Below, piece by piece: positions 24,372 through 25,025 of a stretch of 64,000 nucleotides of DNA (position 1 is the first letter of the stretch; each line of letters begins with the position of its first letter). The position numbers and the translations under genes are program-made. Source of the DNA: Bradyrhizobium lupini (GTDB lineage Bacteria > Pseudomonadota > Alphaproteobacteria > Rhizobiales > Xanthobacteraceae); NCBI RefSeq assembly GCF_040939785.1, contig NZ_CP162553.1, positions 2,108,001-2,172,000 of the forward strand, read 5' to 3'. The notes under the pieces were generated by a model. It was given only the letters and a program-made list of their open reading frames with translations. It was not told the DNA's origin and made no database searches.

Positions 24372-25025
24372 CTAGTTCCCTGCGGTGCGATTTTCAAAGT
24401 AAGTGGAGCGCTGGCCGCGCAAGACGATGTCGAAGCGGTAGGCGAGCGAGTCGAACGGGGTCGATGCGTTGAGGTCGAGCGGCGCGATGAGGCGCTCCAG
24501 CGCATCCTTGTCCGGGATCGTCGTCAGGATTGGGCAGACCGGGATCAGGGGATCGCCCTCAAAGTACATCTGGGTGATCAGACGCTGTGCAAAGCCCGAG
24601 CCGAACACCGAGAAGTGGATGTGAGCGGGACGCCAGCTGTTGACGTAGTTGCGCCAGGGATAGGGTCCCGGCTTCACGGTGCGGAAATAATAGTAGCCGC
24701 TGTCGTCGGTCAGCGCGCGGCCGTGGACGATGATGCGTTCGCCGACGGGATCGCCGTCCTTGGCGTAGTTGCGGATCAAATCATTGTCGAGCGGGCCGAG
24801 ATCGTTGTGCCCGAACACCGGCCCCGTGATCTCCGAGACCGAGTTCTCAAGCGACAGCAACGCCTGGCGCGGCGAGCGCAGCACCGAGGATTTGTAGCCC
24901 GGCGCGTGCGCCGGCGGATGCATGGAACGGTCGCGCTGGAAGAAGCCGCCGTCACCGAGCGGCGGCGTGAACGGCTCGGGACGGTTGGGGCGGGCTTCCC
25001 GCAAGGCTGGCGCCTGGGCATGCAT
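24372..25025 (-). CDS. pcaH: Protocatechuate 3,4-dioxygenase beta subunit with internal deletion
   Basis: Beta subunit, which carries the catalytic non-haem Fe(III). The 217-residue frame aligns with PcaH at both ends ([19 protein letters not shown], then [19 protein letters not shown] and [12 protein letters not shown]). At HGR(101-103)-ALTDD about 46 residues are missing compared with the Pseudomonas enzyme: the whole block from the start of VLDxxGxPVPN through WQANAGGRYRH to FGG. That block holds one iron ligand, the Tyr of GGRYRH (Tyr408 in the Pseudomonas structure numbering). The other ligands, Tyr122, His135 and His137, remain. The gap is in frame, at about 24711-24728. As written, the enzyme should not bind iron normally. 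Confidence 0.9.

Follow-up and report, generated by a model that had tools for sequence, protein, structure and literature searches.

Does Bradyrhizobium lupini still cleave protocatechuate when the dioxygenase gene beside its pcaG has lost part of its interior? The window analysed here, a stretch of 64,000 nucleotides (positions 2108001-2172000 of the 7.83 Mb genome G000, a single contig), carries this gene, pcaH1. The original prediction had left three readings: a pathway dead at this step, replacement by another dioxygenase, or an enzyme with a changed iron site. We think it very probable that a recent slippage deletion, private to this strain, inactivated one redundant pcaH copy, with an intact second pair most likely carrying the cleavage. 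The gene and its neighbours are listed below.

24372..25025, minus strand: pcaH1, beta subunit of protocatechuate 3,4-dioxygenase, lacking 45 internal residues in frame (ORF of 217 aa; TIGR02422, 257 bits)
24716..24723, minus strand: deletion junction within the direct repeat CGGCCGCG, 135 bp missing (alignments to relatives)
23741..24367, minus strand: pcaG1, alpha subunit, full length (TIGR02423, 268.7 bits; cut-off 126.25)
25031..26065, plus strand: LysR-type regulator gene, divergent, below the curated PcaQ model (NCBIfam, 48.6 vs 303.8)
20624..22336, minus strand: pobA, 4-hydroxybenzoate 3-monooxygenase (TIGR02360, 707 bits; cut-off 538.7)
21845..22750, plus strand: AraC-family regulator gene adjoining pobA (best NCBIfam match TIGR02297, 136 bits, below cut-off)
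23102-23722: NYN-domain-like gene that separates pcaG from the pobA region, missing from this place in genome G134 and present in many genus genomes

The order is that of a pcaH-pcaG operon, with the partner alpha subunit gene beside pcaH1. The TIGR02360 match of pobA covers residues 181-570 of the mechanically called ORF, and protocatechuate is the product of the monooxygenase that pobA encodes.

An in-frame deletion found in one genome

Alignment with PcaH of close relatives, a comparison suggested in the original prediction, showed that pcaH1 lacks 135 bp, or 45 residues, in frame against each of 29 relatives (L010-L038); against L037 the gap is exactly 135 bp. The loss had been put at about 46 residues, and its in-frame character holds while the length is corrected to 45. 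The missing stretch corresponds to residues 104-148 in the numbering of the full-length orthologue P0003, with an ambiguity of up to 8 bp from the repeat at its ends. Full-length orthologues such as P0003 have 262 aa, against 217 aa for the pcaH1 product, which falls under the TIGR02422 cut-off (257 vs 296.4 bits) and matches the model in two stretches. Since the remainder of the product is 94% identical to P0003 and one of 265 genus genomes, the strain's own, shows the codon pattern of the junction, the short gene is not a case of ordinary divergence.

A search of 5.77 billion proteins, in which 8000 candidates were scored and the best 120 listed, returned the short protein as a cluster of one member from one contig; the other 119 of the best 120 are 238-377 aa long. 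Across 195 genus genomes, a single match over residues 1-217 was given by the own genome only, among the matches listed, and the other genomes gave separate matches near 1-110 and 101-217, again among the matches listed. Within 80 loci fetched from genomes, the Tyr motif stands upstream in all 76 ORFs that have the W(R/S)PAHIH motif. Relatives sharing the short form, which beforehand had been named as contrary evidence if they kept full activity, were found neither among the 265 genus genomes nor among the matches listed for the 195 genomes and for the protein search nor among the 80 loci. Our searches returned no intact allele from a sister strain of this species, and a plasmid search gave 358 records with matches of 60-80% identity, which are uninformative on the deletion. 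As far as sampled, the deletion is private to this B. lupini strain.

As a separate observation, P0001 is a PcaH-like protein of 377 aa from a 1,337-bp contig, with its central block repeated in tandem, and is possibly a chimera.

The lost block carries an iron-ligand tyrosine

Within the deleted block lies the WQANAGGRYRH motif, which includes the Tyr408 position, and most residues of WQAN..GRYRH are invariant or nearly so in a 27-sequence alignment. Aligned with 2pcd, it spans chain positions 84-128, with the Tyr of GGRYRH at chain position 108; we take the residue number to be the chain position plus 300. At this Tyr the solved chains 1yko and 1ykk have His and Cys, respectively; they are otherwise the same as 2pcd in the alignments, and chain 3lkt has His at the later Tyr, in the PGPYPW motif. 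These are presumably variants of Tyr408 (1yko and 1ykk) and Tyr447 (3lkt). Tyr408 had been described as an axial ligand. An iron-ligand Tyr is indeed lost, but it is the equatorial one, because catechol 1,2-dioxygenase, a related enzyme, binds iron equatorially by its earlier Tyr and axially by its later one (excerpt of PMC8231159).

The pcaH1 product keeps the positions of the axial Tyr447 and of Arg457, His460 and His462 as Y122, R132, H135 and H137, and its set of two Tyr and two His iron ligands is incomplete through the deletion of Tyr408. Compared with PcaH (TIGR02422; PDB 2pcd and 1eo2), both protein ends align well, the pcaH-pcaG order is the same and the axial Tyr, both His ligands and Arg457 have their counterparts, but 45 residues that include the equatorial Tyr are absent and the score lies below the curated cut-off. 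A literature search returned no text joining Tyr408 with protocatechuate, nor one joining three of the four ligand terms. Judged by its sequence, the pcaH1 product is almost certainly inactive.

A short PcaH could still work, either as an enzyme with a changed iron site or in another role, for instance beside PcaG as a partner for structure or regulation, and the kept frame, the four remaining positions and the few substitutions in the remainder of the protein would fit such a role. Chance alone keeps the frame one time in three, however, so the frame is uninformative on function. The form is found in no relative sampled, and the 45 residues with the conserved WQAN..GRYRH block are gone; much more of the core than a single ligand is lost with the block, and we found no support for the changed iron site of the original prediction. 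AlphaFold models from shallow alignments gave a pLDDT of 38.3 and a pTM of 0.24 for the short form, against 50.3 and 0.51 for an intact control that is itself weak. The first row of the short-form alignment lacked Met1, which should not change the result. Within the intact model, weak as it is, the lost stretch covers the strand at 116-122 and the edges of the strands at 95-105 and 146-150. These models argue at most weakly against a working protein; they agree with disruption of the core, and our reading gives them no weight. We regard a working short PcaH as highly improbable. That it assembles with PcaG and binds iron by the three ligands left, so that the strain would have an intradiol site of three ligands or a partner subunit without catalysis but with a new role, seems to us barely credible. 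An inactive product remains the preferred reading.

Breakpoint repeat and age of the deletion

In intact relatives, CGGCCGCG or a variant of it stands at the left end of the lost stretch, and CGG(C/T)CGCG at the right end. With each of the 29 relatives treated as the parent, the exact repeat at the ends measures 8 bp for 13 of them and 7 bp for 5; another 3 give 4 bp, and the other 8 give 1 bp. A direct repeat of at least 4 bp is thus present in 21 of 29, with one copy left at the junction. For the three relatives nearest by DNA (L010, L036 and L037; 92.7-93.7%), the exact repeat is only 4 bp. Among in-frame deletions of 60-300 bp in the genes of these three, chance gives a repeat of at least 4 bp in 3.8% and of at least 8 bp in 0.1%.

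The relatives suggest that an intact ancestral form with the repeat once stood in the strain's own lineage. The breakpoints fit slippage or microhomology joining moderately well, and the slippage between GR codon pairs that had been proposed finds its short GC-rich repeat, 4 to 8 bp long depending on the relative. We infer that slippage or microhomology-mediated joining between two such copies, encoding Gly-Arg, would have removed the 135 bp, with the equatorial Tyr, and left a product without activity. As in other gene losses by deletion between short direct repeats, pcaH1 ends in a repeat of 4-8 bp of which one copy is left; it differs in that the deletion happens to keep the frame.

Beyond the deletion, pcaH1 has no frameshift, no stop and no sign of decay, which counts against an inactivated copy. 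Its 217 codons carry four synonymous and five non-synonymous private changes, compared with 6/2, 9/2 and 12/5 (synonymous/non-synonymous) in pcaH of the three nearest relatives, counts that are too small for a selection test. Because the private changes show no heavy decay, the deletion is probably recent.

Assembly quality at the locus

The short repeat at the deletion ends could also be read as the source of an assembly or consensus error, in which the assembler dropped 135 bp from a pcaH that is full length in the strain. The short form comes from one contig only, and the completeness of this genome, 96.81%, is below that of most single-contig relatives listed. We compared 324 kb of G000 with 400 kb of G134, of which 181.5 kb aligned in one chain at ~94% identity. 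Gaps of at least 15 bp were balanced, with 15 segments missing from G000 and 14 from G134, as were split ORFs (29 of 113 vs 32 of 115), a noisy measure that also counts wrong-frame ORFs. The ORF-split measure did not flag pcaH; the DNA gap list did. With no excess of broken frames or gaps against G134, an error-prone G000 assembly was rejected. Sequencing reads and usual assembly overlaps are far longer than 4-8 bp, which likewise speaks against a collapse at this repeat. We consider an assembly error unlikely and continue with a true deletion.

A second, intact pcaHG pair

The own genome contains eight PF00775 matches, two of which are the window pair. A second pcaH, which the original prediction had proposed to look for, is present in a full-length pcaHG pair at C1:3455607-3456899, 1.3 Mb from the window pair, with both members over the curated cut-offs.

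C1:3456198-3456899: pcaH2, full length (TIGR02422, 382 bits; cut-off 296.4)

PcaG2 scores 271 bits against a cut-off of 126.25. PcaH2 reads WQANSCGRYVH, PGAYPWGN and WRPAHIH, and by eye it has the Tyr408, Tyr447, Arg457, His460 and His462 positions. It belongs to the same family as the pcaH1 product and is also paired with a pcaG, but it is full length with all ligand positions and represents a separate paralogue type in the genus. One intradiol dioxygenase gene, below the cut-off of every model matched, separates the second pair from pcaF (TIGR02430, 700 bits vs 597). Elsewhere in the genome, pcaB candidates over the cut-off occur at two places and a pcaD candidate at one, and the LigB family gave one match, partial.

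Window-type pcaH, defined by an E of 1.4e-68 or better, was found in 90 of 195 genus genomes among the matches listed, with 7 intermediate and 98 weak or absent; about half of this sample, which includes some incomplete drafts, is therefore without a window-type copy. All 90 window-type genomes also matched second-type pcaH, with E values no higher than 2.9e-142; the window-type copy is thus normally accompanied by the second type. The second type also occurs without the window type in many of the 195 sampled genomes.

The presence of a complete second pcaHG pair makes replacement by another dioxygenase the option with evidence. A pathway dead at this step, as had been considered, is not supported, given the redundant pair and the pcaB and pcaD candidates, and the pathway is probably not dead at protocatechuate cleavage. 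Protocatechuate 3,4-dioxygenase activity was measured in B. diazoefficiens bacteroids (excerpt of PMC6320959), and the genus thus makes use of this function; the excerpt does not state which copy supplies it.

The step could nevertheless be truly lost if the second pcaHG were silent or acted on another substrate, leaving the strain no 3,4 route to protocatechuate use. The co-occurrence of both types in 90 of 195 genomes, among the matches listed, hints at different roles or regulation. Against such a loss, PcaH2 and PcaG2 are over equivalog cut-offs, the second pair lies one gene from a pcaF that is itself over the TIGR02430 cut-off, and the second type does without the window type in many sampled genomes. 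We hold this reading to be quite improbable. More likely, the intact second pair would have taken over protocatechuate cleavage, and we infer that the loss of pcaH1 is tolerated because this pair most likely carries the step.

An annotation pipeline would name pcaH1 a beta subunit though its ligand set is incomplete. Beyond annotation the case matters little, being ordinary gene loss. It illustrates cleanly how one copy of a duplicated catabolic gene can be lost through a short in-frame deletion. Redundancy between the two pcaHG types of Bradyrhizobium can be tested here in a natural setting.

Other features of the neighbourhood

Beside pcaG, 985 bp that are missing in G134 were considered as a foreign insert and rejected, as the arrangement is common to many genus genomes; in G128 the pcaG-adjacent arrangement matches at 95% over 1,341 bp. 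At window position 26047, ~1.5 kb that separates the LysR gene from the nicotinate phosphoribosyltransferase gene in G134 is missing here. At 33595, 612 bp are missing compared with G134, where an alpha/beta-hydrolase-like reading frame sits; a few filler bases stand at this junction, with no clear repeat, and the difference may be a loss here or a gain there.

A change of a conserved His in pcaG1, from APHVN to APYVN, was considered as a second lesion and rejected, since L055 (Bradyrhizobium barranii) has the same Tyr. The motif was read in 68 of the 80 loci and not in the other 12; Tyr was counted in 1 of the 68. The private changes of pcaG comprise 28 synonymous and 9 non-synonymous ones. 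Its 5' part is 90-97% identical to L010, L036 and L037, the nearest relatives, and a patch at window positions 23848-24067 is ~82-86% identical to them. The nearest fetched sequence to this patch is L055, at 89%, and the patch is a possible recombination tract.
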